Shown here: piece by piece, positions 3,168 to 21,558 of the stretch
Numbering within the stretch: the first letter of the stretch is position 1
How the letters are laid out: every line of letters begins with the position of its first letter
The notes under the pieces: model-generated
The model's input: the letters and a program-made list of their open reading frames with translations, nothing else
What the model was told of the DNA's origin: nothing
Database searches by the model: none
Translations under genes and position numbers: made by a program
Origin: Bacillota bacterium
GTDB lineage: Bacteria; Bacillota; TC1
Length of the DNA stretch: 45,225 nt
Reading direction: 5' to 3'
NCBI GenBank assembly: GCA_024635955.1
Contig: JAGXHX010000047.1
Location: 1 to 45,225 of the forward strand

Positions 3168-4235
3168 TTACTTAATAACTTTAATTGTTGAAATATTAGA
3201 TAACATTATCCATTTCCTGATTATTGGTGTATATAAGATTTTATTCTTCAGAATTTTTATAAATAATTTTTTTCTTAGGGGTTTAAGTAGTTTTGAATAA
3301 TATTTTATGTTCACTTTGTCATCATTAAAAACCTTAGCTAACAAATGTCCACTATCCATAGCGTAACTAATACCTTCAAGAGAGCTTGGACTAACAAAAC
3401 CTGCGGCTTCACCAATCAAGAAAGCTCCATTACCACCATAACACAACTCATTGACAGAACTAGGACATGAAACCTGACAAATCTCTCTATCATTCAATTC
3501 TCCAAATTCATGACCTTCATCAATCATTTTAGCCTTTAATTTTTCAAATCTATCTTTACTATCAGACATAGGAAAAGCAGCACCAAATATCTCTTGTTCT
3601 CCTTTATAATTTAACCAACCATAGGAGTTAGTAATTTCTTTATCAAAAATAGTCATATAATTAGAAGATTTCTTTTCACTTTGATACCACTCTTGTATAC
3701 ATACATACTGCCTGATTGGAATATTGCCAAAGAATTTTTTTCTTACCAGTGACTTAGACCCATCACCACCCACCAAAATTCTTCCTTTTATATTATATTC
3801 TTTCTCATCAAGAATGTAGCAGACTTCATAATAATCATTTATTTTGTTAATAGTTGTAACAACAGCTTTATCAATCAGTTTAATTTCATTTGAAATCTTA
3901 GATATCAGCCATTTATCAAATAAGCTTCTATCCATGTTCAAATAAAATCTCTGATAAAATCTCTCAATATTTGTTTCAATATCTCTGGCCTTAACCGAAA
4001 ATATTTGAGGATCAACTAGTACATCAAGAGGTAAAGATAAATTTAACTCAGCTAATTTTTTTTGAGCATCAGGAGCAAGTAATCCACCACAAGGTTTATT
4101 GAACCCTTCACCATTAAGAGCTTTTTTATCAATACAAATTGTTTTGTATCTATTAGCATTTAATTCTTTAAGAAATATCGAACTAGCTGGACCCATGCCG
4201 ATAACTATAATGTCATATACATTTTCACTATTCAT
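3168..4235 (-). CDS. FAD-dependent oxidoreductase, geranylgeranyl reductase-like family
   Basis: N-terminal dinucleotide-binding motif DIIVIGMGPASSIFLKEL, GGDGSKSLVRKK, and LIGEAAGFVSPSSLEGISYAMDSGHLLA typical of GGR-like flavoproteins. ORF ATG at 4247 contains the RBS GGAGGGG, so 4235 is the likely start. Confidence 0.8.
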   Translation of the reverse strand: MNSENVYDIIVIGMGPASSIFLKELNANRYKTICIDKKALNGEGFNKPCGGLLAPDAQKKLAELNLSLPLDVLVDPQIFSVKARDIETNIERFYQRFYLNMDRSLFDKWLISKISNEIKLIDKAVVTTINKINDYYEVCYILDEKEYNIKGRILVGGDGSKSLVRKKFFGNIPIRQYVCIQEWYQSEKKSSNYMTIFDKEITNSYGWLNYKGEQEIFGAAFPMSDSKDRFEKLKAKMIDEGHEFGELNDREICQVSCPSSVNELCYGGNGAFLIGEAAGFVSPSSLEGISYAMDSGHLLAKVFNDDKVNIKYYSKLLKPLRKKLFIKILKNKILYTPIIRKWIMLSNISTIKVIK

Positions 4236-4310
4236 ATTCCCCTCCATACTATACCCATATATATTCTACATTGTACTATATGATGATATAAAAAAACAAT
4301 ATAACTAACA

Positions 4311-4345: not shown

Positions 4346-4380
4346 ATAAAAAAATTAGGTAGAGTTTCCTCTACCTAATT
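4346..4380 (-). terminator. Intrinsic terminator of the minus-strand 3D-domain gene, overlapping its stop codon
   Basis: AATTAGGTAGAG-tttc-CTCTACCTAATT 12-bp stem; on the minus strand followed by TTTTTT. Confidence 0.9.
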
Positions 4381-5118
4381 AACTATATATACATTTACTG
4401 TTCTACGTCCGTATTGAATAGCTTCATCATAAGTATCCATGTAAATATCCAATTGACTACCACTACCGATTCTATCCTTAACTACAAAATATCCATAACC
4501 TTCTATGTAGATTTTGGTACCTAATGGTACTAGATTACAAGCTACTGCACCTGCATAAGGTAATTCCCCATTAGCCATATTACTTCCTGTGGAAATATAA
4601 GCTGTACTGCTTAAAGCACCCAAGTATTTCTTAGTGCTAGTAACCGGTTCTGTCGGTTTAGTAGTTGTTGGTTTTTTTATTGGCGCTTTAATTGGCGCTT
4701 TAGTTGGCGTTTTAGTTGGAGTAGTTGTCGAAATCTTGGCAGTTGTAATGTTCTTAGCCAAAATATTCTTTTGAGCCGTTTCTATTTCTAGTCTTGCAGC
4801 TTCTTCAGCTGCTCTTTGAATAGCAATTTTTTCCTGTTCGGCAGCTTTTTCGGCTGCTTCCTTGGCATTTATATCTTCTAATTTAACTTGTTCCTCTGTA
4901 TTCTTTGCTACATTAAATTGCTTTTCTAATACCTTCAGCTTATTATTTTCAGCTTCCATATATTTCTGATTGGCTTCAGACGCGCTACTATAAGATAGGG
5001 CACCTACTAATGACAATGCTCCAAACAAAACAGTTAGCAATATTAATTTTATATGCTTTCTGTTCTTACCCGCCAAACGATATGATCGTTTGCGTAACAT
5101 CTTGGTCAAGTCCTCCAT
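4375..5118 (-). CDS. Secreted/anchored 3D domain-containing protein (YuiC/MltA-like 3D domain)
   Basis: N-terminal TM segment, Ala/Glu-rich coiled coil, Thr/Pro/Lys linker, and C-terminal LSSTAYISTGSNMANGELPYAGAVACNLVPLGTKIYIEGYGYFVVKDRIGSGSQLDIYMDTYDEAIQYGRRTVNVYIV with conserved Asp residues of the 3D domain. Confidence 0.85.
   Translation of the reverse strand: MEDLTKMLRKRSYRLAGKNRKHIKLILLTVLFGALSLVGALSYSSASEANQKYMEAENNKLKVLEKQFNVAKNTEEQVKLEDINAKEAAEKAAEQEKIAIQRAAEEAARLEIETAQKNILAKNITTAKISTTTPTKTPTKAPIKAPIKKPTTTKPTEPVTSTKKYLGALSSTAYISTGSNMANGELPYAGAVACNLVPLGTKIYIEGYGYFVVKDRIGSGSQLDIYMDTYDEAIQYGRRTVNVYIVN
4681..4716. repeat. 12-bp in-frame tandem repeat, about 3 units, encoding a (T/A)P(T/I)K linker
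   Basis: TGGCGCTTTAAT / TGGCGCTTTAGT / TGGCGTTTTAGT read directly; translates to TPTKAPIKAPIK on the minus strand. Confidence 0.8.
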
Positions 5119-5202
5119 TTTCCTAATAATCTATATGAACTTCTTGATTATAGCATTATTGAAATAATTTTGCAAAACTTGTTTCATAATGACTAATTAA
5201 CC

Positions 5203-5232
5203 TTGACATAAACGGTAAGATTTTTATATAAT
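5203..5232 (+). promoter_or_regulatory. Sigma-A-type promoter for rpmH-rnpA
   Basis: TTGACA (5203-5208), 18-bp spacer, TATAAT (5227-5232). Confidence 0.8.
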
Positions 5233-5319
5233 TGATGAGAGTATGCACACATATGAAATTATATGAACTTACAAAAGAGTTCATTTATTATTCAAACAGC
5301 TTAAGGAGGCTAAAAACTA

Positions 5320-5457
5320 ATGAAAAGAACATTTCAACCAAACAGAAGCAAACAAAGAAAAACAAGCGGATTTCTACTAAGAATGAGCTCTACCGCAGGT
5401 AAAAACGTAATCAAAAGAAGAAGAGCAAAAGGCAGAAAAGTACTAACTGTATCTTAA
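5320..5457 (+). CDS. rpmH: 50S ribosomal protein L34 (missed by the ORF track because of length)
   Basis: [48 protein letters not shown] aaggagg. Confidence 0.97.
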
Positions 5458-5458
5458 T

Positions 5459-5830
5459 ATGCTTAAAAGAGAGCTACGTTTAACAAAGAACAAAGAGTTT
5501 ATTTACATTTATAGAAAGGGTTGTAAAATTAAAGGCCGTTATTTTAGCATTTATGCCATAAAAGGTAGCAAAGAAATGAAAATCGGCTTTTCTCTTTCTA
5601 AAAAAGTAGGCAATGCTGTAATTAGAAATCTCTACAAGAGAAGACTACACGAAATATTTGGAGAATTTCTTCCCGTAATGAAACTAAATAAGTACGTTGT
5701 AGTAGCTAGTCCATATATTAAAGAGGCAAACTACCAAGATCTACGGGAAGACATTATGACAACATTGAATAAAAGTGATTTTTTTGTTCTGAAGGAGGGT
5801 AACGGTGAATATAACCGACATGCTGATTAG
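5459..5830 (+). CDS. rnpA: Ribonuclease P protein component
   Basis: LKRELRLTKNKEFIYIYRKGCKI...GFSLSKKVGNAVIRNLYKRRLHEIF RnpA signature; directly after rpmH. Confidence 0.96.
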   Translation: MLKRELRLTKNKEFIYIYRKGCKIKGRYFSIYAIKGSKEMKIGFSLSKKVGNAVIRNLYKRRLHEIFGEFLPVMKLNKYVVVASPYIKEANYQDLREDIMTTLNKSDFFVLKEGNGEYNRHAD

Positions 5831-6464
5831 TCTAATGGAGTTTTTTCATAATTTCTTTGGCAGTTATGGAATAGCCATATTCATGGTAATTCTAACAATT
5901 AAGTTAGTTTTATTTCCATTGACACTATACAGTCAGAAATCAATATTAAAAACTCAAAAAATTCAACCACTATTAAATGAAATACGTGAAAAATATAAAC
6001 ATGATATGGATAAACAATCAAAGAAAATAACAGAACTATATGCAGAACACAATCTGTCTATGTTTTCACCTTTGATGAGCCTAGTACCAATAATCTTGAC
6101 TTGGCCTGTAATCATAGCTATCTTTAATTTATTAAGAAATTATTTTAAAGATCTTGGAGCAGGTTTCCTTTGGATAACTGATATCTCACAAAAGGGACAT
6201 CTTGAAGTTGCAATACTAGTAGCATTGATCCAAATATTTTCTATGTATATAAACTCAAAAACAATGAATACAAACCAACCTAAATCAATGCTTTATGTAA
6301 CAATGGGATTATCAGTCTTCATTGGTTATCTAGCATATACTTACCCAGTTGCTTTAGGAATATACTGGTTTTCATTTAGTTTAATCGGTATTGTTGAACA
6401 ACTACTTATAAAAAAAGTGTTTTTAAGAAAACACGTTGAAGAGGCTAACTCTTTAAAAAAATAA
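5805..6464 (+). CDS. yidC: YidC/Oxa1 family membrane insertase
   Basis: SYGIAIFMVILTIKLVLFPLTLYSQKSILKTQKIQPLLNEIREKYK, typical YidC; GTG start with strong RBS aaggaggg; overlaps rnpA by 26 nt. Confidence 0.94.
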   Translation: MNITDMLISLMEFFHNFFGSYGIAIFMVILTIKLVLFPLTLYSQKSILKTQKIQPLLNEIREKYKHDMDKQSKKITELYAEHNLSMFSPLMSLVPIILTWPVIIAIFNLLRNYFKDLGAGFLWITDISQKGHLEVAILVALIQIFSMYINSKTMNTNQPKSMLYVTMGLSVFIGYLAYTYPVALGIYWFSFSLIGIVEQLLIKKVFLRKHVEEANSLKK

Positions 6465-6484
6465 ATAGAATCTAGGTGAATTAA

Positions 6485-7192
6485 ATGAACTTTAAAGGTA
6501 AAACTGTTGATCAAGCAATAGAAACAGCCTTAAATTCCCTCGGTGTAAGTAAGGATGAATTGGATATAAAGATTATCCAGGAACCTAGCAAGGGAATACT
6601 AGGAATTGGACAAAAGGAAGCTAAAATAGAAGTTTCCCTAAAGGAGACACCTATTGATTTTACAATAGAAGATGTAGTAAGGATAGAACCTGAAACAGAA
6701 GAAATATCAATAGACTTCGAACAAAGCCCTGAGAAGAAGAAGAAAATAGATAAGGCAACTGGCTTTTTAAAAGAAATGATTAATACTCTAGGTTATCAGG
6801 TTGAATACTTCATAAGGGAAGACCAAAACTTTGTAATCATCAATCTTAAAGGTAAAAACGCAGGAAAACTTATTGGTAAAAGAGGAGAAACACTCTATGC
6901 AATACAATACATTGTAAATATTGTAGCCAACAGAAATGATGATACAAATCTAAAATTTCTTGTAGATATTGAAGATTTTAGAATTCAAAGAGAAAAAACA
7001 CTGACAAACTTAGCTAATAAACTTGCAAGGCAAGTGAAAACAGAAGGCAAACCAGTTAGTCTTGAACCTATGAATCCACTGGAAAGAAAAATTATCCATA
7101 TGGCTTTACAAAAAGATGACAGTATTCTTACCACCAGCGATGGTGAAGAAGGCCACAGACATATTGTAATATCATTAAAAGCTCAGGATTAA
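6485..7192 (+). CDS. jag: RNA-binding protein Jag/KhpB (Jag-N, KH, R3H)
   Basis: Jag_N MNFKGKTVDQAIETALNSLGVSKDEL..GILGIGQKEAKIEV; KH GKNAGKLIGKRGETLYAIQYIVN; R3H LEPMNPLERKIIHMALQ. Confidence 0.95.
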   Translation: MNFKGKTVDQAIETALNSLGVSKDELDIKIIQEPSKGILGIGQKEAKIEVSLKETPIDFTIEDVVRIEPETEEISIDFEQSPEKKKKIDKATGFLKEMINTLGYQVEYFIREDQNFVIINLKGKNAGKLIGKRGETLYAIQYIVNIVANRNDDTNLKFLVDIEDFRIQREKTLTNLANKLARQVKTEGKPVSLEPMNPLERKIIHMALQKDDSILTTSDGEEGHRHIVISLKAQD

Positions 7193-7205
7193 CTGAGCTT
7201 TTTTT
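7177..7205 (+). terminator. Short intrinsic terminator/attenuator overlapping the jag stop codon
   Basis: aaaaGCTCAG-gattaa-CTGAGCttttttt. Confidence 0.75.
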
Positions 7206-7219
7206 AAATGGAGAGAAAA

Positions 7220-8587
7220 ATGATGTTAAAAGAATATACTATAGCCAATATTATAACTCCACTAATTGAATGTGGTATTGGTATTATTAGAATAAGTGGA
7301 AAACAAGCTTTTGAAATTATCGATGAGATTTTCAATGCCTATAATCCTGCCTTCAAACAAAAAGAAAGCCATAAGGCATTTCTTGGAACCATCCATAATA
7401 GTAATGGAAGCAAACTTGATGAAGCATTAGTCCTAATTATGAAAGGACCACACTCTTTCACAGGAGAAAATACAGTCGAGATACACTGCCATGGAAATCC
7501 TTTCATTCTCAAAGAAGTATTGAAAGAAATTCTCAAGCAAGGAGCTACAAAAAGCGAAGCAGGCGAATTTACTAGAAGAGCTTTCTTAAATGGAAAATTA
7601 GACCTTACTCAAAGTGAAGCTATACTTGATACTATCCAAGCAAATAACCAAAAGGCACTTAGTCTTTCTTTAAATCAGTTGGAAGGCAGTCTTAAAAATA
7701 AAATTGGTCTTCTAAAAGAAGATTTAATTAGCATAATAGCCTATCTAGAAGCCTCAATAGACTTCCCAGATGATGAAATTGAAGAAAGCTACACTAACGA
7801 TGTAATCAACTCTAGAGTAAATAAACTACTAGATGAAATAAATAAACTCCTAAAATCATACAGTCAAGGTAAAATAATCAAAGATGGGATTATGACAGTT
7901 CTGATTGGCAGACCTAACGTAGGCAAATCATCACTATTAAACAACTTGTTAAATGAAGATAGAGCAATTATCACTCATCTTCCCGGAACAACAAGAGATG
8001 CAATTGAAGAACAAATCAATATAGGTGATCTTATATTAAATATTGTAGATACGGCAGGTTTTAGAGAAACAGAAGATATAATTGAAAAAATAGGCATTAA
8101 AAAAACCTATAATTACATTGATATTGCCCAACTAATATTATTTTTAGTCGATGCAAGACAAGGACTTACATCCGATGACCATTTGATGATAAACCATCTG
8201 AATCAAATAGGCAAAAACTTTATCATCATAATGAATAAAGTAGACTTAATAAAAAAAGAAAACATAAAATCCTCAAACGATATAATCTATATTTCAGCCA
8301 AAGAAGGTACTGGAATTGAAGGATTAAAAAGTGCAATCAAAGACTTATTTATAAAAGATGAGATAGAAGATTATTATATAAGCAATTTAAGATACTATGA
8401 ATGTTTAGTAAAGGCTAAAGAGGCTTTAGATGTATTCCAAGAAAGTATAGCCTCGGAGATAGTACCAGCAGATCTTTTGGCTATAGATTTAAAAGATGCC
8501 TATATTGCCCTAGCTGCAATAACAGGTGATGATTTTACAGAAGATTTATTGGACAACATATTCAGCAAATTTTGCATAGGTAAGTAG
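7220..8587 (+). CDS. mnmE: tRNA uridine-5-carboxymethylaminomethyl(34) synthesis GTPase MnmE
   Basis: GRPNVGKSSLLNNLLNEDRAIITHLPGTTRDAIEE, C-terminal FCIGK; RBS ggagag before ATG 7220/7223 (track start is 7208). Confidence 0.97.
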   Translation: MMLKEYTIANIITPLIECGIGIIRISGKQAFEIIDEIFNAYNPAFKQKESHKAFLGTIHNSNGSKLDEALVLIMKGPHSFTGENTVEIHCHGNPFILKEVLKEILKQGATKSEAGEFTRRAFLNGKLDLTQSEAILDTIQANNQKALSLSLNQLEGSLKNKIGLLKEDLISIIAYLEASIDFPDDEIEESYTNDVINSRVNKLLDEINKLLKSYSQGKIIKDGIMTVLIGRPNVGKSSLLNNLLNEDRAIITHLPGTTRDAIEEQINIGDLILNIVDTAGFRETEDIIEKIGIKKTYNYIDIAQLILFLVDARQGLTSDDHLMINHLNQIGKNFIIIMNKVDLIKKENIKSSNDIIYISAKEGTGIEGLKSAIKDLFIKDEIEDYYISNLRYYECLVKAKEALDVFQESIASEIVPADLLAIDLKDAYIALAAITGDDFTEDLLDNIFSKFCIGK

Positions 8588-8595
8588 GAGGAAAA

Positions 8596-10491
8596 GTGAA
8601 TTTCGTTGATAATTATAAAATAATAGTGATAGGTGGAGGACATAGTGGTACTGAAGCAGCATATGCAAGTGCTAAAATGGGTTTGTCAACTTTACTATTA
8701 ACAATTAGCCTTGATTCTATAGGACTTATGCCTTGCAATCCTTCTATAGGTGGACCTGCCAAAAGCCACTTGGTATTTGAAATTGATGCCTTAGGTGGTT
8801 TAATGGGTAAAATTGCTGACAGAACCTCAATTCAGAAAAAGATACTTAATAGAAGTAAAGGGCCCGCTGTTTATGCCTTGAGAGCTCAAATAAACAGATT
8901 TCTATATTCCAGAGAGATTATTAAAGAACTAGAGAATCTAGAAAACCTTGATATTGTTCAAGGTGAAGCTAAAGATATCTTAATTAACAACAATGGAAAA
9001 ATTATTGGGATAAGCTTAACTAATGGTTTGAATTATAGTTGTGAAAGTATAATTCTAGCAACAGGCACATATCTATCATCAAAAGTAATAATAGGTGATA
9101 TGGTAAAGGAATCTGGTCCTAATGAACTAAGTAATAGTAAATACCTGGCAAATTCATTGCATAATCTTGGCATAATGACACATTCATTTAAAACAGGTAC
9201 ACCTCCTAGATTACATAAGGGTAGCCTAAATATAGAAGAATTAGAATTACAGCCAGGTGATTCTCAAGATTATACCTTTAATTTTGAAGAAATTAAGGGC
9301 AATCTCCCTCAAGTGGATTGCTACCTGACATATACAACTGATAAAACTAAAAAAATAATAGAAGATAATATAAACAGATCACCTCTGTACTCAGGTCTCA
9401 TTACTGGAGTCGGACCAAGATATTGTCCATCGATAGAGGATAAAATAGTTCGTTTTCCTGAAAAAATAAGTCATCATTTATTTATTGAGCCTGAAGGTCA
9501 TGATGTAGAAGAAATTTACCTACAAGGATTTTCAACTAGTCTACCTGGAGATGTTCAAATAGAAATGGTTCACTCTATAAAAGGTCTTGAATCAGCCAAG
9601 GTTATGAAACTTGGCTATGCTATTGAGTATGAAGTTATCAATGCAACAGAACTAAAACTTACCCTAGAGTCCAAAAAAATAGCAAATCTATATTTTGCCG
9701 GTCAGATTAACGGAACTTCAGGTTATGAAGAAGCTGCAGCGCAAGGTTTAATAGCTGGAATAAATGCAGTATTAAAATTAAAAGATAAAGAACCGCTGAT
9801 ATTAGACAGATCTAATGGTTATATTGGAGTATTAATAGATGATTTGGTTACTAAAGGTACCGAAGAACCTTATAGAATGTTTACTTCGAGAGCTGAATAC
9901 AGATTACCGCTTAGGCAGTCTAATGCTGATAGACGTTTAACCAAAACAGGTTATGAAATTGGCTTAATTAAACAAGAGCGTTTCGAAAACTTCCAAAAGA
10001 AGATAGAAACTATAGACAAGGAAGTAAGTAGATTACAAAATCTGACCATTAATGCTGATGATGAAGCTGTTAAGCAACTTGTACAGATGTCTAAAAGTTC
10101 AGCCTTAGAACAAAATATTAAAGCGTCAGCCTTAATTAGAAGACCAGAGATAAGTTACTTAGATGTTACTAAAATATACCCACCAGAAGAGATTATCAGT
10201 TCAAGAGAAGGGGAAGAAGTAGAACTATTAATTAAATATGAAGGCTATATTAAAAAACAAATTGAACAAGTAGAAAATTATTCTAAAGGTGAAAAAAAGC
10301 TAATTCCAGAATGGCTCACTGACTATAGACTAGTAAAAGGACTTACTAGTGAGGCAATAGAAAAACTCAACACCGTAAAACCTTTATCAATAGGGCAAGC
10401 AAGTAGAATATCAGGTATTACGCCTGCAGATATTCATGTACTATTAATATATTTAGAACAAATAAAAAGACAGGAGAAAAATGATGTTTAA
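8596..10491 (+). CDS. mnmG: tRNA uridine-5-carboxymethylaminomethyl(34) synthesis enzyme MnmG
   Basis: YKIIVIGGGHSGTEAAYASAKMG, CNPSIGGPAKSHLVFEIDALGG, GTSGYEEAAAQGLIAGINA; GTG start with RBS taggagg. Confidence 0.97.
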   Translation: MNFVDNYKIIVIGGGHSGTEAAYASAKMGLSTLLLTISLDSIGLMPCNPSIGGPAKSHLVFEIDALGGLMGKIADRTSIQKKILNRSKGPAVYALRAQINRFLYSREIIKELENLENLDIVQGEAKDILINNNGKIIGISLTNGLNYSCESIILATGTYLSSKVIIGDMVKESGPNELSNSKYLANSLHNLGIMTHSFKTGTPPRLHKGSLNIEELELQPGDSQDYTFNFEEIKGNLPQVDCYLTYTTDKTKKIIEDNINRSPLYSGLITGVGPRYCPSIEDKIVRFPEKISHHLFIEPEGHDVEEIYLQGFSTSLPGDVQIEMVHSIKGLESAKVMKLGYAIEYEVINATELKLTLESKKIANLYFAGQINGTSGYEEAAAQGLIAGINAVLKLKDKEPLILDRSNGYIGVLIDDLVTKGTEEPYRMFTSRAEYRLPLRQSNADRRLTKTGYEIGLIKQERFENFQKKIETIDKEVSRLQNLTINADDEAVKQLVQMSKSSALEQNIKASALIRRPEISYLDVTKIYPPEEIISSREGEEVELLIKYEGYIKKQIEQVENYSKGEKKLIPEWLTDYRLVKGLTSEAIEKLNTVKPLSIGQASRISGITPADIHVLLIYLEQIKRQEKNDV

Positions 10492-11191
10492 AGAGATACT
10501 TATAAATTACTACAACAACATTACTCCTGAACAGCTAAATATGCTCAACGAGTATTATATATTGCTTTCGGAACATTCCAAACTTTATAACCTTACAGCT
10601 ATTAACGAAGAAGATGAAGTTGTTATCAAACATTTTTATGATTCGCTTATGTTCTATGATGCACTTGAATTAAATGATAATAAAAAACTAAAAATAGTAG
10701 ATATGGGGAGTGGCGCAGGCTTTCCAGGATTAGTTGCAGCTATAATGAATGATAGTTGTTCATTTACTCTGGTAGATTCAGTTGGAAAAAAAGTAAATTT
10801 CACAAAAATTGTTGCTGAAAAGTTAAAGCTTAAAAATCTCACTGCTATCCATGCAAGGAGCGAAACACTTGGACAAGACTTCAAATATAGAGAACAGTTT
10901 GATATCGGTGTTGCTCGAAGTCTGGCTTACCTGCCAGTACTAAGTGAATATCTACTACCTTTAATAAGGGTTGGCGGCAAAATGATAATCACAAAGGAAT
11001 ATCCAATTGAAGAGGAATTGAGTGTTAGTAAGAAGGCACTGAAGATACTTGGCGGTAAATTTATAAAGGATCAAGCTTACGAACTTCCTATTTTCAACAA
11101 CAAAAGAGCTTTTCTGACCTTTTCTAAAGAAAGAAAGACACCAGCTGAATATCCAAGAAGAGAAGGTATTCCTTCAAAAAAACCTATTTAG
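10481..11191 (+). CDS. rsmG: 16S rRNA (guanine(527)-N(7))-methyltransferase RsmG
   Basis: YNLTAINEEDEVVIKHFYDSL, IVDMGSGAGFPGLVAAI, GVARSLAYLPVLSEYLLPL; synteny mnmG-rsmG-parA. Confidence 0.95.
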   Translation: MMFKEILINYYNNITPEQLNMLNEYYILLSEHSKLYNLTAINEEDEVVIKHFYDSLMFYDALELNDNKKLKIVDMGSGAGFPGLVAAIMNDSCSFTLVDSVGKKVNFTKIVAEKLKLKNLTAIHARSETLGQDFKYREQFDIGVARSLAYLPVLSEYLLPLIRVGGKMIITKEYPIEEELSVSKKALKILGGKFIKDQAYELPIFNNKRAFLTFSKERKTPAEYPRREGIPSKKPI

Positions 11192-11193
11192 AA

Positions 11194-11209
11194 TGTTTCA
11201 CGTGAAACA
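11194..11209. promoter_or_regulatory. parS: parS centromere site 1 (perfect 16-bp consensus, within a perfect 22-bp palindrome 11191-11212)
   Basis: TGTTTCACGTGAAACA read directly; the extended palindrome is GAATGTTTCACGTGAAACATTC. Confidence 0.98.
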
Positions 11210-11270
11210 TTCTATTTATATTTTTATTATGTTATAATTTAAAATGCACAAATAAAATATAGAGGTAAAT

Positions 11271-12026
11271 ATGAAAACAATAGCAATAATTAATCAAAAG
11301 GGTGGAGTAGCAAAAACTACTAGCACTATAAATTTAGCAGCCTATCTGGCATTAGAGGGCAAGAAGACTTTGATCATTGACCTAGATCCACAAGGAAACG
11401 CCACTAGTGGTCTTGGTGTAAATAGATTTGATTTATCAAGATGTGTTTATGAGGCTATAATTGACGGTTTGTCTTATAAGGATATTCTCGTTAAAACTAA
11501 AATTAAAAATTTAGATTTACTACCTGCTACAATATCTTTAGCTGGCGCTGAGATAGAGATGGTGAATATGGAAAAAAGAGAATATTTATTAAAGAGATTA
11601 GTTGATGATATTAACGGATACGATTATATATTAATTGACTGTCCGCCTTCACTTGGACTACTTACTATAAATGCCTTAACTGCCTCGGATCAGTTTATTG
11701 TGCCAATTCAATGTGAATACTACGCATTAGAAGGCCTGGGCCAACTTCTTAAAACCATCGATCTTATAAAAAAGGGTTTAAATCCAGATTTAGAACTTAA
11801 CGGAGCTTTGATGACTATGTTTAATAGCACTCAAAACCTATCCTCGCAAGTTGTAGCTGAAGTTAGAGCTTTTTTTAAAGCTAAAGTTTTTGATACAGTA
11901 ATACCAAGAAGTGTACGATTATCAGAAGCTCCAAGCTATGGCGAAACAATATCGACCTATGCACCAACATCAAAAGGAGCTATCGCTTATGAAGCATTAG
12001 CTAAGGAGGTAATTAAACGTGGTTAA
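11271..12026 (+). CDS. parA: Chromosome partitioning ATPase ParA/Soj
   Basis: Deviant Walker A QKGGVAKTTSTINLA; LIIDLDPQGNATSGLG; YDYILIDCPPSLGLLTINAL. Confidence 0.95.
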   Translation: MKTIAIINQKGGVAKTTSTINLAAYLALEGKKTLIIDLDPQGNATSGLGVNRFDLSRCVYEAIIDGLSYKDILVKTKIKNLDLLPATISLAGAEIEMVNMEKREYLLKRLVDDINGYDYILIDCPPSLGLLTINALTASDQFIVPIQCEYYALEGLGQLLKTIDLIKKGLNPDLELNGALMTMFNSTQNLSSQVVAEVRAFFKAKVFDTVIPRSVRLSEAPSYGETISTYAPTSKGAIAYEALAKEVIKRG

Positions 12027-12870
12027 AAAAGGTTTAGGTAAAGGCTTGTCAGCTTTAATACCAGAAAATGAATCAACTGCTAGCACTGATGGTAAAATTA
12101 TGATGTTACCTATAGATATGATTAAAGCTAATCCTGATCAACCTAGGAAAAGATTCTCAACTGACTCTTTAAAAGAACTAGCTGAATCTATAAAAGAAAA
12201 CGGTATAATACAACCTCTTATTGTAACTAAAAAAGATGGAGTGTATTTTCTGATTGCAGGCGAAAGAAGGCTAAGAGCCTCTGCTTTAGCTGGTTTAACA
12301 GATGTTCCAGGGATAATAAGGAATATGGATGATGTCAATTCAGCTGCTGTGGCAATAATCGAAAATATCCAAAGAGAAAATCTTTCACCAATAGAAGAGA
12401 GTATTGCATATCAAAAATTAATTGACACTTATCTTCTTACTCAAGAAATGCTTGCTGTTAAATTAGGTAAAAGCAGAACCTATATAACTAATACCTTAAG
12501 ACTTTTACATCTTCCAGGTGAAGTAAAAACTTATATTGAAGAAAACTTAATTTCTTCAAGCCATGGCAGAAGCATACTAGCTGTTCCAAGTGAACATCAA
12601 CTAGAACTAGCTAACTATATAATAAAACATAAATTAAGTGTTAGAGAAACTGAAACTTTAGTTAAAGATTTTATTATTGATAAAATAAGACCACATAAAA
12701 TTGAAGTTCCTGCTGAAAAAGATGTTCATATTAAAGATGTCGAAAAAAGATTAGAAGGTTCTTTTGGCACCAAAGTTAGCATAAAAGGTAAAAATAAGGG
12801 GTCGATTACTTTAGAATACTATACAAAAGAAGATCTCATGAGAATAACTGACATTCTTTTATCCAAATAA
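12019..12870 (+). CDS. parB: Chromosome partitioning protein ParB/Spo0J
   Basis: KGLGKGLSALIP start; NPDQPRKRFSTDSLKELAESIKENGIIQPLIV; GERRLRASALAGL; ENIQRENLSPIEE. Confidence 0.95.
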   Translation: MVKKGLGKGLSALIPENESTASTDGKIMMLPIDMIKANPDQPRKRFSTDSLKELAESIKENGIIQPLIVTKKDGVYFLIAGERRLRASALAGLTDVPGIIRNMDDVNSAAVAIIENIQRENLSPIEESIAYQKLIDTYLLTQEMLAVKLGKSRTYITNTLRLLHLPGEVKTYIEENLISSSHGRSILAVPSEHQLELANYIIKHKLSVRETETLVKDFIIDKIRPHKIEVPAEKDVHIKDVEKRLEGSFGTKVSIKGKNKGSITLEYYTKEDLMRITDILLSK

Positions 12871-12886
12871 TGTTTCACGTGAAACA
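12871..12886. promoter_or_regulatory. parS: parS centromere site 2 (perfect 16-bp consensus)
   Basis: TGTTTCACGTGAAACA directly abutting the parB stop codon. Confidence 0.98.
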
Positions 12887-12898
12887 ATTGAGGTGAAC

Positions 12899-13945
12899 AT
12901 GCTTACACCATACTTATACTTAGAATATAAAAAATTAGTAGAAAACATAAGAACTATGTCCAATCTAGCTGAGAAAGCAAATATTGATTTAAGACCACAC
13001 TGCAAAAGTCACAAAACAGTAGAAATTGCCAAGTTGCAAATGCAATTTGGTGCATCAGGCATAACGGCATCTACTCTAAAAGAAGTTAAGATGCTAATTA
13101 ATGGTGGCGTTGATTCAATAACCTTAGCTTATCCACTTGTTAGTGAAGACAAAGTCAAATTATTTCAAGAACTAAAGAAGAAGGTAGACCTTAGATCAAT
13201 AGTTCTTGACTTTCAACATGCTAAATTTTTAAATGAATACTTTAGCAAGAAAAACCCTTTAATAGCCTACCTAAAAGTAGATTGTGGTTTAAATCGACTA
13301 GGAGTACAACCTGAAGCAATTGAGGATACAATTAAAAATATAAGTGAATTGGAAAATATCATTATTATAGGTCTTTTGACCCATGCCGGACAAAGCTATA
13401 GTGGACTGAATTCGTTAAAAGAAGTGGCTCGAATAGAAGCAGCTTCAGTATTAAGTAATAAAATTCCATCACTACTTGCGTCATGTGGCTCTACGCCCAC
13501 GGCAAAAGAATTGATGAAAATAGCTGGAATTGATGAAATTAGACCAGGAAACTATGTATTTTATGATAATACAATGATAAATCTTGGAGTTTGTAATATT
13601 GATAATTGTGCTTTATATATAAAATCAACAGTTTTAGCTATATACGCAGATTATATGGTTATTGATGCTGGCAGCAAGTCTTTATCAAGTGATAAAGGAG
13701 TTCATGGAAACAATACACTCAAGGGCTTTGGCCTTATACTTGAAGATCATAATTTAATAATAGATAGATTATCAGAAGAACATGGGATGGTTATTGGACA
13801 GATGATCTCCAAATTTAATATTGGAGATATTATAACAATTATTCCAAATCATGCTTGTACAGCTGTTAACTTATTTGATGAAATTAATGTTTTTGATGGT
13901 AATAAACTTTTTGATAGTTATAAAGTCAAGGGTAGGGGGCATTAA
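12899..13945 (+). CDS. PLP-dependent alanine-racemase-fold enzyme, D-threonine aldolase / D-serine dehydratase-like family
   Basis: LRPHCKSHKTVEIAKLQMQFGASGITASTLKEVKMLINGGVDSITLAYPLV; LLTHAGQSY; HACTAVNLFDE metal-site-like C-terminus; RBS gaggtg before ATG 12899. Confidence 0.85.
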   Translation: MLTPYLYLEYKKLVENIRTMSNLAEKANIDLRPHCKSHKTVEIAKLQMQFGASGITASTLKEVKMLINGGVDSITLAYPLVSEDKVKLFQELKKKVDLRSIVLDFQHAKFLNEYFSKKNPLIAYLKVDCGLNRLGVQPEAIEDTIKNISELENIIIIGLLTHAGQSYSGLNSLKEVARIEAASVLSNKIPSLLASCGSTPTAKELMKIAGIDEIRPGNYVFYDNTMINLGVCNIDNCALYIKSTVLAIYADYMVIDAGSKSLSSDKGVHGNNTLKGFGLILEDHNLIIDRLSEEHGMVIGQMISKFNIGDIITIIPNHACTAVNLFDEINVFDGNKLFDSYKVKGRGH

Positions 13946-15337
13946 ATGAAAGAATTATTCAGAAAAATCAAAAAAATAGATAAACTATTGCAATTACCTG
14001 AATTAGAAGGTCTTAGAGACCTATATAGTGATGCATATTTGATGGATTCTATTAAATATGCAGTTAAAATTGTTAGAAATAAAATAAATAGTAGCATGAT
14101 TACCATTGAAAATAATATTGATTCAGCTATCGTTTCTGAAACAATAAAACATATAACCTTGGAACAAAAGCCTAATTTGCAAAGAGTTTTGAACTGTACT
14201 GGCACTGTACTCCATACTAATTTAGGAAGAGCTATATTATCGAATAGAGCAAAAGAATCTTTATACTCACTAGCTGACCAATATTCTAATCTAGAGCTGA
14301 ATTTAAGTACTGGTAAAAGAGGTTCAAGATATGACCATATAACAAATTTACTTCAAAAACTTACAGGCTGTGAAGATGCTTTAGTAGTAAATAATAATGC
14401 TGCAGCAGTTCTATTGGTTTTAACAGCTCTAAGTAAAGGAAAAGAAGCTATTGTTTCTAGAGGTGAACTTGTAGAAATTGGTGGTTCCTTTAGAATACCA
14501 AATGTTATGGATTTCGGAGGAGCTAAATTAAAAGAAATTGGAACTACAAATAAAACTCATCTTTTTGATTATGAAAATGCAATAAATAAAGAAACAGGTT
14601 TATTAGTAAAAGTTCATAATAGCAATTACACTATTAATGGCTTTACTAAAACAATTCCTGCAGAGGAACTTGTTCCTTTGAGCAAAAAGAAAAGGATCCC
14701 CATTTATTATGATCTTGGTAGTGGTGCCTTATTTGATTTTAGTCCCTACGGTATTCAAGAACCAACCGTAAAGACTCTAATTAAAAGCGGTGTTGACATA
14801 TTATCATTTAGTGGAGATAAGCTCTTAGGTGGTCCTCAAGGAGGAATAATTGTAGGGAAGAAAAAATTAATAGATAAAATAAAAAAGAATCAATTATTGA
14901 GAGCTATAAGAGTAGATAAATTAACTTTATCTGCATTAGAAGGCACATTGCTAGAGTATCTGGACATGGATAAAGTAAAAACTGATAATCCTACTATTAA
15001 TATGTTAACAGTTGATTTAGATACATTAGAGAGAAAAGCGATAATATTAAAAAAAATGTTTGAAAAAGAAAATATATCTTTTAATATTAAAAATTTAAAC
15101 TCATTATCTGGTGGCGGTTCGTTACCAGATAAGAAGCTTCCATCCTTTTGCTTGATATTTGAGGTGGATGACAAAGTAAGTCTACCAAAATTAGTAGAGA
15201 ATATAAGACTTAATAGAATACCTATTCTTGTAAGAGTAAAAGAGAATAAACTGATTATGGACTTAAGAACTATAAAAGAAGAGGATTTTGAAGTGCTAGT
15301 AGAAGAATTTTCTAGAGTTTACAAAGGTACAATATAA
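13946..15337 (+). CDS. selA: L-seryl-tRNA(Sec) selenium transferase SelA
   Basis: RVLNCTGTVLHTNLGRAILS, ALVVNNNAAAVLLVLTAL, SFSGDKLLGGPQGGIIVGKK; followed by selB. Confidence 0.96.
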   Translation: MKELFRKIKKIDKLLQLPELEGLRDLYSDAYLMDSIKYAVKIVRNKINSSMITIENNIDSAIVSETIKHITLEQKPNLQRVLNCTGTVLHTNLGRAILSNRAKESLYSLADQYSNLELNLSTGKRGSRYDHITNLLQKLTGCEDALVVNNNAAAVLLVLTALSKGKEAIVSRGELVEIGGSFRIPNVMDFGGAKLKEIGTTNKTHLFDYENAINKETGLLVKVHNSNYTINGFTKTIPAEELVPLSKKKRIPIYYDLGSGALFDFSPYGIQEPTVKTLIKSGVDILSFSGDKLLGGPQGGIIVGKKKLIDKIKKNQLLRAIRVDKLTLSALEGTLLEYLDMDKVKTDNPTINMLTVDLDTLERKAIILKKMFEKENISFNIKNLNSLSGGGSLPDKKLPSFCLIFEVDDKVSLPKLVENIRLNRIPILVRVKENKLIMDLRTIKEEDFEVLVEEFSRVYKGTI

Positions 15338-17220
15338 TGAGCTTTTATATTGTAGGAACCGCTGGTCATATAGACCATGGTAAAACTGAACTATCAAAGG
15401 CTCTAACAGGTGTTCAAACAGACAGATTAAAAGAAGAACAACAAAGAGGAATGTCAATTAAACTTGGCTTTGCACCTCTAAAACTTAATGATGAAATAAC
15501 TTTAGGTCTAGTTGATGTGCCAGGTCATGAAAAATTTATACAACAAATGTTATCAGGTGCTTCAGGTATGGACTTAGTCCTCCTTGTTATCGCAGCTACA
15601 GAAGGGATTATGCCCCAAACAAAAGAACATATTGATATCATTTCTCTATTGGGTATTAAAAATATCATTGTGGCTTTAACCAAAAAAAGTCTGGTTGATG
15701 AAGATTTTCTAGAATTAGTAAAAGATGATATTGGAGAATATCTCAACAAAAGAGATTTTATAAATACACCAATTATTCCTGTAGACAGTATAACCCTAGA
15801 TGGAATAGATAAATTAAAAATAAAATTACAAGAAATGGTAGAAAATTTACCACCAAAATACCTAGGTAACTTTCCACGACTTCCAATCGACAGAGTCTTC
15901 ACACTACAAGGACATGGGACTATTGTTACCGGTACACTTTGGAGTGGAGAGATTTCTAAAGGAGATTTACTTAAAATATTTCCTATTGACCATAAAGTGA
16001 AAGTAAGGAATATACAAGTACATAATAAAAATGTAGAAACAGCTTATGCTGGACAAAGAGTTGCTCTAAATATACCTGATGTGACAATCAAAGAAATTCC
16101 ATCAGGAGCTGTACTATTAAAAGAAAATATAATCCAACCAACTTTCAAGGTTTCTGGAAATTTCAATTTACTAGAAGATAAACAAAGCATGCGTAATCTA
16201 GATAAAATTAGAGTTCACCTAGGAACAGGAGAAACAACAGGTAAACTAATACTTCTAGAAAATGATGAAATATATCCAGGTGAAGAACAACTTGCAGGTC
16301 TATATTTAGATAAAGCATTAGGAACTATCTTTGGAGATATTTTAATCATTAGAAAAGAAAATGGTAGTGAAACACTAGGTGGTTTTAGTGTTATAGAAGT
16401 TTTTCCTGATAAGTTTAAAAGAATGGATAATGATTTTATAACCGATCTAAGGAAAAAAGCAGAAGGCTCACTAGATGATAAGTTGCTATCAATTATTAGT
16501 AAATATCCATTTATTAACATTGATAACTTATCACTAAAAATGGCTATTTCTAAGAATGAAATTAAAGAATTATTGAAAAAAGAGATTGATATAGTAATTG
16601 AATTTGATAATCAATATCTTTTAAGTGAAAAGAAAATTAGTTTAATAGATGAGATTGTTGAATATATTAAATTTAAGTTGGAAAAAACACCACTTGTAGT
16701 TGGTGTTAGCAAAGAAGAAATAAGATCAAAATTCTTCAAAGACTGTAGTCAAAAAACCTTTAATGGTATAATAAAACTAGTAATTGGTGATAAACTTGAA
16801 ATAGTTGGAGATTTAATAAAAGAAACAGGACATGAAGTAAATCTAAATAAAGAAGATACAAAGATTATTGATAAAATTATTGAGGTTTATAACAAAGATG
16901 GTTTTAATACCAAAAACAATAAAGAAATGTCAGGATTTTTAAAGTTGTCAATTGATAAATATTTGAAATATTACAACTTTCTTATAGAAAATGGTAAACT
17001 GGTCAAAATAGATGAAAATATTTATCTTTCATTAATGGTATATGAGGATGCTATTAAAAAAATTAAAGACTATTGCTTAGTCAATGAATCTATTGATATA
17101 GGTAGTGCAAAGGACATACTTAATACATCCAGAAAATATATTGTTCCTTTTTTGGAACACTTGGATTACAAAAAGATTACAAAGAGATTAGAAAACAAAA
17201 GAGTATTAACAAGGAGGTAA
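15337..17220 (+). CDS. selB: Selenocysteine-specific elongation factor SelB
   Basis: MSFYIVGTAGHIDHGKTELSKALTGVQTDRLKEEQQRGMSIKLGFAPL; DVPGHEKFIQQMLSGASGMD; C-terminal winged-helix extension. Confidence 0.96.
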   Translation: MSFYIVGTAGHIDHGKTELSKALTGVQTDRLKEEQQRGMSIKLGFAPLKLNDEITLGLVDVPGHEKFIQQMLSGASGMDLVLLVIAATEGIMPQTKEHIDIISLLGIKNIIVALTKKSLVDEDFLELVKDDIGEYLNKRDFINTPIIPVDSITLDGIDKLKIKLQEMVENLPPKYLGNFPRLPIDRVFTLQGHGTIVTGTLWSGEISKGDLLKIFPIDHKVKVRNIQVHNKNVETAYAGQRVALNIPDVTIKEIPSGAVLLKENIIQPTFKVSGNFNLLEDKQSMRNLDKIRVHLGTGETTGKLILLENDEIYPGEEQLAGLYLDKALGTIFGDILIIRKENGSETLGGFSVIEVFPDKFKRMDNDFITDLRKKAEGSLDDKLLSIISKYPFINIDNLSLKMAISKNEIKELLKKEIDIVIEFDNQYLLSEKKISLIDEIVEYIKFKLEKTPLVVGVSKEEIRSKFFKDCSQKTFNGIIKLVIGDKLEIVGDLIKETGHEVNLNKEDTKIIDKIIEVYNKDGFNTKNNKEMSGFLKLSIDKYLKYYNFLIENGKLVKIDENIYLSLMVYEDAIKKIKDYCLVNESIDIGSAKDILNTSRKYIVPFLEHLDYKKITKRLENKRVLTRR

Positions 17221-17222
17221 AC

Positions 17223-17717
17223 ATGGCTAAAGATGCATCATTTGATATTGTCTCAGAGTTTGACATGCAAGAAATGGACAATGCAATCAACCAAACAAAA
17301 AAGGAAATTTTAACAAGGTATGATTTTAAAGGTTCAAAAGCAGAAGTGAATTTAACAAAAGAATCTATTACAATAGCTGCAGAAAATGATAGTAAAGTTA
17401 ATTCAATTGTTGACATACTACAATCAAAGGCTATAAAAAGAGGTTTATCATTAAAAGTTTTTGATTATGGCAAGATTGAAACAACAGCTGGTTCAATGGT
17501 TAAACAAACTATTACATTAAAACAAGGAATTAACCAAGATATAGCTAAGAAAATAGTTAAAGACATAAAAGAAAGTAAATTAAAAATTCAAAGCCAAATA
17601 CAAGGTGAAGTTGTAAGGGTAAGTGCAAAAAATATTGATGATTTGCAAACTATAATGGCAATGTTAAAAGAAAAGGATTTAGAAATACCATTGCAATTTA
17701 TAAACTTCAGGTCATAA
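17223..17717 (+). CDS. yajQ: YajQ family nucleotide-binding protein
   Basis: ASFDIVSEFDMQEMDNAINQTKKEILTRYDFKGSKAEV; VRVSAKNIDDLQTIMAMLKEKDLEIPLQFINFR. Confidence 0.95.
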   Translation: MAKDASFDIVSEFDMQEMDNAINQTKKEILTRYDFKGSKAEVNLTKESITIAAENDSKVNSIVDILQSKAIKRGLSLKVFDYGKIETTAGSMVKQTITLKQGINQDIAKKIVKDIKESKLKIQSQIQGEVVRVSAKNIDDLQTIMAMLKEKDLEIPLQFINFRS

Positions 17718-17727
17718 GGAGAATATA

Positions 17728-18270
17728 ATGGTTTTACTTATTGATATCCTATTACTAGTTATATATTTAGTAACTGTCTTAATTTGCTATAAAAGAGGTT
17801 TCTTCAGAGGACTTTTGGGTATAGCAAAAATTGTTTTTGCTATTATTGGTACCTACTATCTGCAAATATTATTAAGCCCTTTCTTTGATAGTTTTATACC
17901 AACGCATATAAAACTCCCAGATGCTATAAGTGGTAATTTAATAGATAATATTTTACAGACTCTTTTAAGCAGATTTGCAAGCTCAATCATTATCTTCATT
18001 GCTGTATATTTGATATTGAGTTTAATTAGCAATTTACTCTTAAATATACTGGAAGGTTTTATTCTAACCAAATGGCTTAATAGACTGGGAGGTCTAATAA
18101 TAGGCTTGGTTTTAGGTGTAGTAGTAGTTATTATTTCCAGCTACATTATTTCTCTAATACTATTATATAATAACTATACAACTGGTATAGTCATTATAAA
18201 TGAATCAAATATATTGAAACTATTTGTTGAAGATAACATTCAACTATTAGTACAAATTATTGGTAAGTAG
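17728..18270 (+). CDS. CvpA family membrane protein
   Basis: Four predicted TM segments with YKRGFFRGLLGIAKIVFAIIGTYY and a CvpA-like overall pattern. Confidence 0.78.
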   Translation: MVLLIDILLLVIYLVTVLICYKRGFFRGLLGIAKIVFAIIGTYYLQILLSPFFDSFIPTHIKLPDAISGNLIDNILQTLLSRFASSIIIFIAVYLILSLISNLLLNILEGFILTKWLNRLGGLIIGLVLGVVVVIISSYIISLILLYNNYTTGIVIINESNILKLFVEDNIQLLVQIIGK

Positions 18271-18279
18271 GTGAATACT

Positions 18280-19326
18280 ATGAAAAAAATCGGTATATTA
18301 ACCTCTGGTGGTGATGCACCAGGTTTAAATGCTGCTATAAGAGGTGTTGTTAAATCAGCAAAAGAATTACATAATATGGAAACCGTTGGCTTCTATTTCG
18401 GTTTTGGTGGTTTGATTGATAACAACTATACAACAATAAATGAAACTTCAGGTCTATTGACTAAAGGTGGTACAATACTAAAAACATCTAGAATTAAACC
18501 TTTTAAAGGTGAAGATAAAGATGAAAAAATAAAATCTATACTTCATAATTACAGGAATCATGATTTAAGTGCCTTAGTTATAATTGGTGGTAATGGTACA
18601 CAAAAAACCGCTTATAACTTATCAAAAGAATTAGGCCTGAATATTATAACCTTACCTAAGACTATAGATAATGATATTTCTGGTACTGATGTTTCCTTCG
18701 GGTTTTCATCTGCAGTTGATATAGCAACAGAAGCAATTGACAGAGTACATTCCACTGCATCCTCACATAACAGAGTCATGATAGTGGAAGTAATGGGCCA
18801 TAAGGCTGGTTGGATTGGCTTACACGCCGGTTTATCAAGTGGAAGCGACATAATACTGCTACCTGAAATTCCATTCTCTTTTAAGAAGGTTTATGAAGCT
18901 ATTAACAAAAGAGTTGAACAAAGAAAAAATTCTACAATAATCTGTGTTGCTGAAGGGGCATTTAGTCATGATGAAATAGAATTGTTACCTGCAGAACTAG
19001 CAAGTAAAAGAAAATTTAGAAGTATTGGACAACGACTTGCTAGAAAAATTGAAAAACACACACCATATGAAAGTAGACTTACAGTTTTAGGCTACGTTCA
19101 AAGAGGTGGTTCTCCTAATGCCTTTGACAGAAATTTAGCTACTATTTTAGGGGCCAATGTAGCCAATCTTATTGAGGCAAGAAACTTTGGTAATATGGTT
19201 GGATATATAGATAATGAGGCTAAAATTGTCCCTTTGATTGATGTTGCCGGATATCTTAAAACAGTAGAAAAGGATAATCAAGGACTAGTTGCCGCAAGAT
19301 CAATTGGCATATCTTTTGGAGATTAA
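18280..19326 (+). CDS. pfkA: 6-phosphofructokinase (PFKA family, mixed-substrate-like subgroup)
   Basis: MKKIGILTSGGDAPGLNAAIRGVV; VIIGGNGTQKTA; LPKTIDNDISGTDVSFGF; EVMGHKAGWIGL; GYVQRGGSPNAFDR. ATG 18280 preferred to track GTG 18271. Confidence 0.94.
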   Translation: MKKIGILTSGGDAPGLNAAIRGVVKSAKELHNMETVGFYFGFGGLIDNNYTTINETSGLLTKGGTILKTSRIKPFKGEDKDEKIKSILHNYRNHDLSALVIIGGNGTQKTAYNLSKELGLNIITLPKTIDNDISGTDVSFGFSSAVDIATEAIDRVHSTASSHNRVMIVEVMGHKAGWIGLHAGLSSGSDIILLPEIPFSFKKVYEAINKRVEQRKNSTIICVAEGAFSHDEIELLPAELASKRKFRSIGQRLARKIEKHTPYESRLTVLGYVQRGGSPNAFDRNLATILGANVANLIEARNFGNMVGYIDNEAKIVPLIDVAGYLKTVEKDNQGLVAARSIGISFGD

Positions 19327-19369
19327 TATATTTTTATTAAAAAATACTGTTAAAATTAATAAAAGATTG

Positions 19370-19375
19370 TATAAT
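19370..19375 (+). promoter_or_regulatory. Candidate -10 box (TATAAT) for gcvH
   Basis: tgTATAATgta about 40 bp upstream of the gcvH ATG; weak -35. Confidence 0.5.
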
Positions 19376-19415
19376 GTATGTATGTGTTTTAAATTCTATT
19401 AGATGGAGGAATAAA

Positions 19416-19787
19416 ATGGAAAACTTGAGATTTACTAAAAATCACGAATGGGTTCGTGTAGAAGGCAACAAAGGAACAGTTGGAATTAGCGATTATGCTC
19501 AACATGCAATGGGTGATGTTGTGTTTGTAGAACTACCAGAATTAGATGCAGTCTTCAAACAAGATGATAACATTGCAACTATTGAATCAGTTAAGGCTGT
19601 TTCTGACGTTTACTCACCAATATCAGGCAAAGTAGTTGAAGTTAATACTGACTTAGAAGATGAGCCAGCAGCTATCAACGAAGATCCTTATAAAAAAGGT
19701 TGGGTATTCACACTTGAACTTGAAGATGCTTCACAACTTGACTCATTAATGTCAAGCTCTGAATATGAAGAATTTATCAAAAAATAG
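19416..19787 (+). CDS. gcvH: Glycine cleavage system H protein
   Basis: MENLRFTKNHEWVRVEGNKGTVGISDYAQHAMGDVVFVELPELDAVFKQDDNIATIESVKAVSDVYSPISGKVVEVN; lipoyl-lysine context ESVKAVSD; RBS tggagga. Confidence 0.97.
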   Translation: MENLRFTKNHEWVRVEGNKGTVGISDYAQHAMGDVVFVELPELDAVFKQDDNIATIESVKAVSDVYSPISGKVVEVNTDLEDEPAAINEDPYKKGWVFTLELEDASQLDSLMSSSEYEEFIKK

Positions 19788-19809
19788 TTAATATTTAATT
19801 TTAAATTAT

Positions 19810-19843
19810 AAAAAAGAGCAGGTTTGTACCTGTTCTTTTTTTA
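19810..19843 (+). terminator. Intrinsic terminator after gcvH
   Basis: AAAAAGAGCAGGT-ttgt-ACCTGTTCTTTTTTT. Confidence 0.9.
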
Positions 19844-19999
19844 TAATTAATATAAAGTATTTTTGATAAAATATTTTTATGTTATTTTACATTAATTTTA
19901 TGTAAACTCAATATTTATCCCACCACTTAGTGTTTTCAGTTTTTGCAATACTTATTAAAAACTTTCCACATAAAATTACCTCTTTTTTTTAGTTGTAAT

Positions 20000-20008
20000 T
20001 GTGGATAA
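20000..20008 (-). promoter_or_regulatory. DnaA box (perfect consensus)
   Basis: TGTGGATAA on + (TTATCCACA on -). Confidence 0.9.
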
Positions 20009-20071
20009 ATTTTGTTATCATTTTTTATACACCCTAAGTAATGGGGTTGAACAACACTTCGAATTTTTAAT

Positions 20072-20080
20072 TGTGGATAA
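20072..20080 (-). promoter_or_regulatory. DnaA box (perfect consensus)
   Basis: TGTGGATAA on + (TTATCCACA on -). Confidence 0.9.
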
Positions 20081-20101
20081 CTATCTGCATAACTTGTATA
20101 C

Positions 20102-20110
20102 TTATCCACA
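20102..20110 (+). promoter_or_regulatory. DnaA box (perfect consensus)
   Basis: TTATCCACA. Confidence 0.9.
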
Positions 20111-20139
20111 GCCCTTAATAAATCACAAGGAGTTATACT

Positions 20140-21474
20140 ATGCCATTTGAATCAATCAATCATAATTTTACCAAACTTTTAAAAGAAAAAGTAATCAATA
20201 AAAGCACTTATGATGCATGGTTTAGAGAAACCAACATCATAAAGATTGAGTATGATAAGGCATATATCTCTGTTCCCAATAGCTTTGCAAAAAAGTTTTT
20301 GTCTAAAAGTTATTATCATTTAATAAATGAGGTTGTAAATTTAGCTTGTGAAAAAAAATTGGATCTTGAATTTGTGGAAAACTCATCAGAAGAGTATGTA
20401 AAAATTGTTAATAAAACAAGAAGTCATAATTTGTCTAAGAATAATTTAAATCCAAAGTATATTTTTGATGATTTTGTTGTAGGTGAAAATAATCGTTTTG
20501 CACATGCTGCAAGTCTTGCTGTAGCTGAAAATCCTGCCAAACTATATAACCCTTTATATATATATGGAGGTGTAGGTTTGGGTAAAACTCATTTAATGCA
20601 CGCAATAGGTCATCACTATCAAGAATTAAATCCTAAATCTAACGTATTGTATGTTTCTTCAGAAACATTTACAAATGATCTTATAAATTCTCTAAAAGAT
20701 GGAAAAATTGAAAAATTCAGAAATAAATATAGAAATATTGATTTACTACTGATTGATGATATTCAATTTTTAGAAAACAAAGAAAAGACACAAGATGAAT
20801 TTTTTCATACATTTAATACGCTAAAGGATTCAAATAGGCAAATAGTAATATCAAGTGATGAACCACCTTCAAAATTAAAAATTGAAGATAGACTTACTTC
20901 AAGATTCAGTTGGGGACTTACAACTGATATTAGTCAACCAGATTTTGAAACTAGGGTAGCAATCTTAAGAAAAAAAGCTAGTATGGATGGAATTAAACTT
21001 AATGATGAAATTTATTCTATGATTGCAAGTAAAATAACCTCAAACATCAGAGAATTAGAAGGCTCACTTTTAAGAGTTGATGCCTATGTGGCACTTCATA
21101 ATATAGATAAAAGAAAAATTGATGAAGCATTTATAGATGAAATATTAAAAGATATAACCAATAAACAAATAAAGATGAAGTTAAATGACCAAACAATTAA
21201 AAAAGCTGTAGCAACGTTTTATGGTATTTCAGTAGATGAAATGATTTCAAGAAGAAGATCAAGAAATATATCATTTCCAAGGCAAATTGCTATGTATTTA
21301 ATTAGAGAATTAACTGATTTTTCTCTTCCTAAAATTGGAGTTTCTTTTGGAGGAAAAGATCATACGACAGTTATGCATGCCTGTGATAAAATAGCTATAT
21401 GCATAGAAACTAATCCTGAAATTAAACAAGTTGTTAACCAAATCAAAGAATCTCTGGAAACTGGAAAATTTTAA
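20140..21474 (+). CDS. dnaA: Chromosomal replication initiator DnaA
   Basis: NPKYIFDDFVVGENNRFAHAASLAVAENPAKLYNPLYIYGGVGLGKTHLMHAIGHHY; SFGGKDHTTVMHACDKI. Confidence 0.99.
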   Translation: MPFESINHNFTKLLKEKVINKSTYDAWFRETNIIKIEYDKAYISVPNSFAKKFLSKSYYHLINEVVNLACEKKLDLEFVENSSEEYVKIVNKTRSHNLSKNNLNPKYIFDDFVVGENNRFAHAASLAVAENPAKLYNPLYIYGGVGLGKTHLMHAIGHHYQELNPKSNVLYVSSETFTNDLINSLKDGKIEKFRNKYRNIDLLLIDDIQFLENKEKTQDEFFHTFNTLKDSNRQIVISSDEPPSKLKIEDRLTSRFSWGLTTDISQPDFETRVAILRKKASMDGIKLNDEIYSMIASKITSNIRELEGSLLRVDAYVALHNIDKRKIDEAFIDEILKDITNKQIKMKLNDQTIKKAVATFYGISVDEMISRRRSRNISFPRQIAMYLIRELTDFSLPKIGVSFGGKDHTTVMHACDKIAICIETNPEIKQVVNQIKESLETGKF

Positions 21475-21484
21475 TTGTGTAAAC

Positions 21485-21493: not shown

Positions 21494-21558
21494 GATGTAC
21501 AAGTTCCTAACAAATGGTACACATGCTAGAAACCATGTAGCGTATAGTTTTTTTTGAC

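Follow-up and report, generated by a model that had tools for sequence, protein, structure and literature searches.

The window analysed here, a stretch of 45,225 nucleotides that is the whole of one contig (C86) from a Bacillota genome of 1.44 Mb (97 contigs, 77% complete), very probably carries a bipartite replication origin linked to dnaA and, beside it, a block of core genes that was reversed in the ancestor of this family of uncultured Bacillota and has been replicated head-on ever since. The observations that carry this reading are the order of the genes, the distribution of that order among relatives, the positions of the DnaA boxes and the strand composition of the genes on either side of dnaA.

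Gene order around dnaA

Sixteen genes, called as open reading frames and matched to their families, form a single block of about 15 kb from rpmH (5320–5457) to gcvH (19374–19787), all on the plus strand and all to the left of the DnaA boxes and of dnaA (20140–21474, +), as an earlier note on this DNA had described. The first half (5320–11191, +) comprises rpmH, rnpA (from 5459), yidC (from 5805), jag (from 6485), mnmE (from 7208), mnmG (from 8596) and rsmG (from 10481), and is followed by parA (from 11271) and parB (from 12019), which together occupy 11271–12870 on the plus strand inside the head-on block. The second half (12893–19787, +), which adjoins dnaA in both the window's genus and its sister genus, holds a D-threonine aldolase/3-hydroxy-D-aspartate aldolase-like gene (DTA-like; from 12893), selA (from 13946), selB (from 15337), yajQ (from 17223), cvpA (from 17728), pfkA (from 18271) and gcvH, with every gene of both halves and parAB on the plus strand. 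The order rpmH-rnpA-yidC-jag-mnmE-mnmG-rsmG-parA-parB of the classical Bacillota origin region is present in the window, but the classical placement of rpmH, adjacent to dnaA and divergent from it, is absent: rpmH lies 14.8 kb upstream of dnaA on the same strand, in agreement with the distance of about 15 kb given earlier, and the gene adjacent to dnaA is gcvH. Inside the block parAB is bracketed by two perfect parS sites, one (TGTTTCACGTGAAACA, 11194–11209) conserved in all five genus members and the other at 12871–12886, so that the segregation locus remains 7–9 kb from dnaA.

To the left of the block, a gene for a 3D-domain protein (4375–5118, -) flanks the left junction, a 201-bp gap (5119–5319) between it and rpmH. 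Beyond it lies an FAD-binding oxidoreductase gene (3168–4247, -) on the leading strand of the left arm, which is absent at the corresponding place in G002, G003 and G004. An mntR-like regulator gene and feoB (431–3105, +), missing from the earlier note, are head-on too and stand left of rpmH in both genera; because they are also on the plus strand, the left side of the block is not cleanly marked by the 5.2-kb strand switch, and the rearrangement may extend further left than that point.

The gap between gcvH and dnaA (19788–20139, 77% A+T) resembles an oriC1 region, with three perfect DnaA boxes (TTATCCACA) at 20000 (-), 20072 (-) and 20102 (+), out of only four perfect copies in the entire 45 kb, and a weaker box at 19962 (+). 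The spacing of these boxes is conserved in the genus, and the copies in the sister genus (G005) are degenerate. The gap between dnaA and dnaN (21475–21629) resembles an oriC2 region and contains two TTATCAACA boxes, at 21485 (-) and 21559 (+), the latter followed by a tract of period 3. The number of boxes in this gap varies among relatives (one or two); the tract is conserved and is clearest in G002, the copy in the window matching the Clostridioides difficile DnaA-trio only partly. DnaA boxes are found on both sides of dnaA, as in a bipartite oriC, which is predicted to lie in these two gaps.

Rightward of the origin region, dnaN (from 21630), recF (from 22760), recJ, trmB and a two-component pair (21630–28307, +) are leading-strand genes near the origin and served as the comparison set. 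In both genera alike recJ comes after recF (22760–25578 in the window); in Bacillus, recF is followed by gyrB and gyrA. The dnaN-recF-recJ-trmB stretch (22001–28000) is unusually rich in A+T, with a G+C content of 22–28% against about 31% around it and a very low GC3; G001 and G004 share the low GC3. The gap at 28.3–28.6 kb, considered as a second origin candidate, was rejected on finding by eye that it contains a small gene resembling rpmE (L31).

Strand composition and the place of the origin

The raw cumulative GC skew of the window is lowest near 5 kb instead of 20 kb, and in G001 and G002 the skew changes sign at or just left of rpmH. These observations would favour an active origin at the strand switch near 5.2 kb, from which the block and dnaA would be replicated co-directionally, the boxes at dnaA being only autoregulatory. 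The earlier note had proposed cumulative skew as a check, and a minimum near 5 kb was indeed obtained; the meaning attached to it, a relocated origin or a recent inversion, was reversed by codon-based controls. As total skew follows gene orientation, the raw minimum does not locate the origin, and raw GC skew was dropped as an origin locator. In a gene-dense origin region the raw minimum can be 15 kb off the likely origin and may mislead origin predictors.

Measured on the coding strand in five genus members, skew ranges from +0.12 to +0.13 in the block, from +0.18 to +0.28 in leading-strand genes and from +0.08 to +0.15 in lagging-strand genes. Per-gene tests of total skew place the block below the leading genes (p 3e-6 to 2e-5; G000, G001 and G002); in G001 and G002 they find the block no different from the lagging genes. 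A classifier trained genome by genome to tell leading from lagging genes assigned block genes to the lagging strand in 13/13 cases in G001, 11/13 in G002 and 11/12 in G005, and genes near dnaA to the leading strand in six of seven cases in each of these genomes. Scored with the G001 classifier, the window itself has 10 of 13 block genes lagging and 19 of the 20 genes right of dnaA leading. Judged against the leading and lagging genes of its own genome, the block has lagging-strand composition.

Since amino-acid composition affects skew, a criticism raised in PMC9098844, the same genes were compared with those of classical genomes, and because four-fold sites are sparse and the near-origin right-arm genes intermediate, orthologues in classical genomes were taken as the control. 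Subtracting the skew of dnaA-dnaN-recF from that of the block leaves -0.04 to -0.11 for the family; the corresponding range for seven classical genomes is +0.08 to +0.19, with no overlap. On four-fold-site skew alone, the block and the right-arm genes near the origin were not told apart in G002 and G005 and not clearly in G003, and third-position skew in the orthologue comparison was mixed within the genus; given these mixed signals, total gene skew, two-fold codons and the classifier carry most of the evidence. The sister genus is represented by a complete chromosome, a single 1.586-Mb contig that starts at dnaA. Its skew is positive in all stretches sampled between 0 and 746 kb, and mostly negative in those between 820 kb and about 1575 kb, so that one switch falls close to dnaA and the other on the opposite side, in the interval 746–820 kb.

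The lagging-like block, the leading-like genes to the right and the DnaA boxes at dnaA together argue for an origin beside dnaA and a head-on block, and replication forks in living cells would start at dnaA. This agrees with one of the two readings offered in the earlier note, with the codon composition, the flanking boxes and the skew of G005 as its basis. The other, an origin near 5.2 kb, is very improbable: the codon composition of the block is lagging-like in every genome of the family, the 201-bp gap has no DnaA box at 0–1 mismatch, and the rpmH block of G005 lies in the negative-skew arm, 115 kb from dnaA, with the overall change of skew still near dnaA.

Distribution and history of the reversed block

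The block is contiguous and identical in gene order in G000, G001 and G002, with rpmH on the same strand as dnaA; in G001 and G002 rpmH lies 14.84–14.85 kb before dnaA and the intervening genes all follow the order of the window, and in G003 and G004 the block is present on contigs that end near gcvH. No 16S gene turned up in those genus members that were searched for one. In the sister genus it occurs in two pieces. The run parA-parB-DTA-selA-selB-yajQ-cvpA-pfkA-gcvH is on the plus strand at the far end of the contig, directly before dnaA if the chromosome is circular, and mntR-feoB-...-rpmH-...-rsmG is on the plus strand some 100 kb further to the left, the two halves being separated by other DNA; the displaced rpmH block is still head-on and in the same arm. 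The DNA between the halves (G005 C1:1494655-1527000) includes segments that in G001 and G002 are left-flanking or belong to the right arm, and several origin-region rearrangements separate the two genera. The pfkA-like match before gcvH in G005 (L023 13646-14425) lacks a full-length open reading frame, the match starting at 13646 and the frame, just 147 aa long, at 13982; the sister genus may have a broken pfkA.

Misassembly or a chimeric contig, which comes to mind because the window derives from a fragmented metagenome-assembled genome, is almost certainly not the cause of the block's orientation. The same junctions are contiguous in other genomes of the genus (G001 and G002), and in G005 gcvH and dnaA occupy opposite ends of the 1.586-Mb contig and would be neighbours on a circular molecule; the misassembly that the earlier note had named as a possible refutation is contradicted by these assemblies, unless one error is common to them all.

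Among 89 informative genomes, those with rpmH and dnaA both on one contig, rpmH is divergent from dnaA (the classical state) in 84, the five exceptions being four genomes of the window's family and G077. In 11 further loci with dnaA and block genes, dnaA is opposite to the block. The nearest outgroup, the other family of the order (G006–G009), has rpmH divergent from dnaA on the left arm in 4/4 genomes. This outgroup gene order upholds the earlier claim that the block runs opposite to the usual Bacillota arrangement, and the 84 classical genomes and the nearest outgroup speak against the orientation being ancestral in the clade. On gene order, the reversed state is derived and probably as old as the family. 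The reversal most likely predates the split of the genera, because the rsmG-parA adjacency is older and both halves in G005 are head-on; the proposal of a recent inversion finds no support, since the arrangement is common to the genus and, in two pieces, to the sister genus.

In the route that we infer, rpmH-rnpA-yidC-jag-mnmE-mnmG-rsmG-parA-parB would have been reversed relative to dnaA in the family ancestor, and DTA-selAB-yajQ-cvpA-pfkA-gcvH would have been reversed together with it or joined later. The block would now be replicated from right to left, against its transcription, and this head-on arrangement would have persisted as the genus diversified and when it split from the sister genus. 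A single clean inversion is plausible. Un-inverting the block restores the classical rpmH-parB order beside dnaA, and to this extent the earlier proposal of a single inversion between 5.2 and 19.85 kb stands; for the rest it is no more than a possibility, as selAB-pfkA and gcvH lie elsewhere in the nearest outgroup (in G006, the right arm carries selA, selB, pfkA and gcvH in the same orientation as dnaA) and feoB, left of the 5.2-kb switch, is likewise on the plus strand.

An inversion is not the only route to this arrangement: an oriC-dnaA module that moved past a block on the right arm would produce it as well. An ancestor with the block on the right arm would resemble G077, a phylum relative (L126-L127) in which dnaA-dnaN-recF is followed, about 23 kb rightward, by rnpA-yidC-jag-mnmE-rsmG-parA-parB-selA-selB on the plus strand, on the other arm yet co-directional with replication (leading). 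The right-arm genes of G006 and the plus-strand feoB left of the block also fit such a history, in which either the module or the block moved past without any inversion of the block. We consider it possible though rather unlikely, as it requires transposition instead of one inversion and the nearest outgroup, G006–G009, keeps rpmH divergent on the left arm. Returning to reversal in the family ancestor, the chances seem about even that the family stably keeps the genes for L34, RNase P protein, YidC, MnmEG and ParAB, with parS, head-on even after the later split of the block, the orientation being tolerated or even favoured rather than a passing accident.

Comparison with known origin regions

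Few genes would be expected to tolerate a head-on orientation as poorly as core genes adjacent to the origin, and a head-on family beside a classical sister family offers a natural test of claims about the cost of head-on conflict and about mutation rates. The region is a natural case of moderate interest for the debate on head-on genes (PMC6220195; critique in PMC9098844). A limited literature search by title and abstract found no report of an inverted origin block. When an inversion stays within one replichore, its leading and lagging strands should change places (PMC5850607), and the swap proposed for the block is of the kind treated in studies of such inversions (PMC5850607; PMC6220195; PMC9098844); unlike those studies, the present case uses outgroup gene order together with skew, concerns origin-proximal core genes and is fixed in a family.

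With the conserved Firmicutes origin region rnpA-rpmH-dnaA-dnaN (Ogasawara and Yoshikawa 1992, as cited in PMC7561715) the window shares the genes from rpmH to parB and their order, DnaA boxes flanking dnaA and a rightward dnaA-dnaN-recF; it differs in that the block faces dnaA, rpmH being neither adjacent nor divergent, and in that gcvH is in rpmH's place. Bipartite origins are described in C. difficile and Bacillus subtilis, and a DnaA-trio has been reported at the unwinding site of C. difficile (PMC7561715). The predicted origin of the window resembles these in its boxes on both sides of dnaA and, in part, in the period-3 tract of the dnaA-dnaN gap, but it has fewer boxes, and its upstream half is bounded by gcvH and dnaA, not by rpmH and dnaA.
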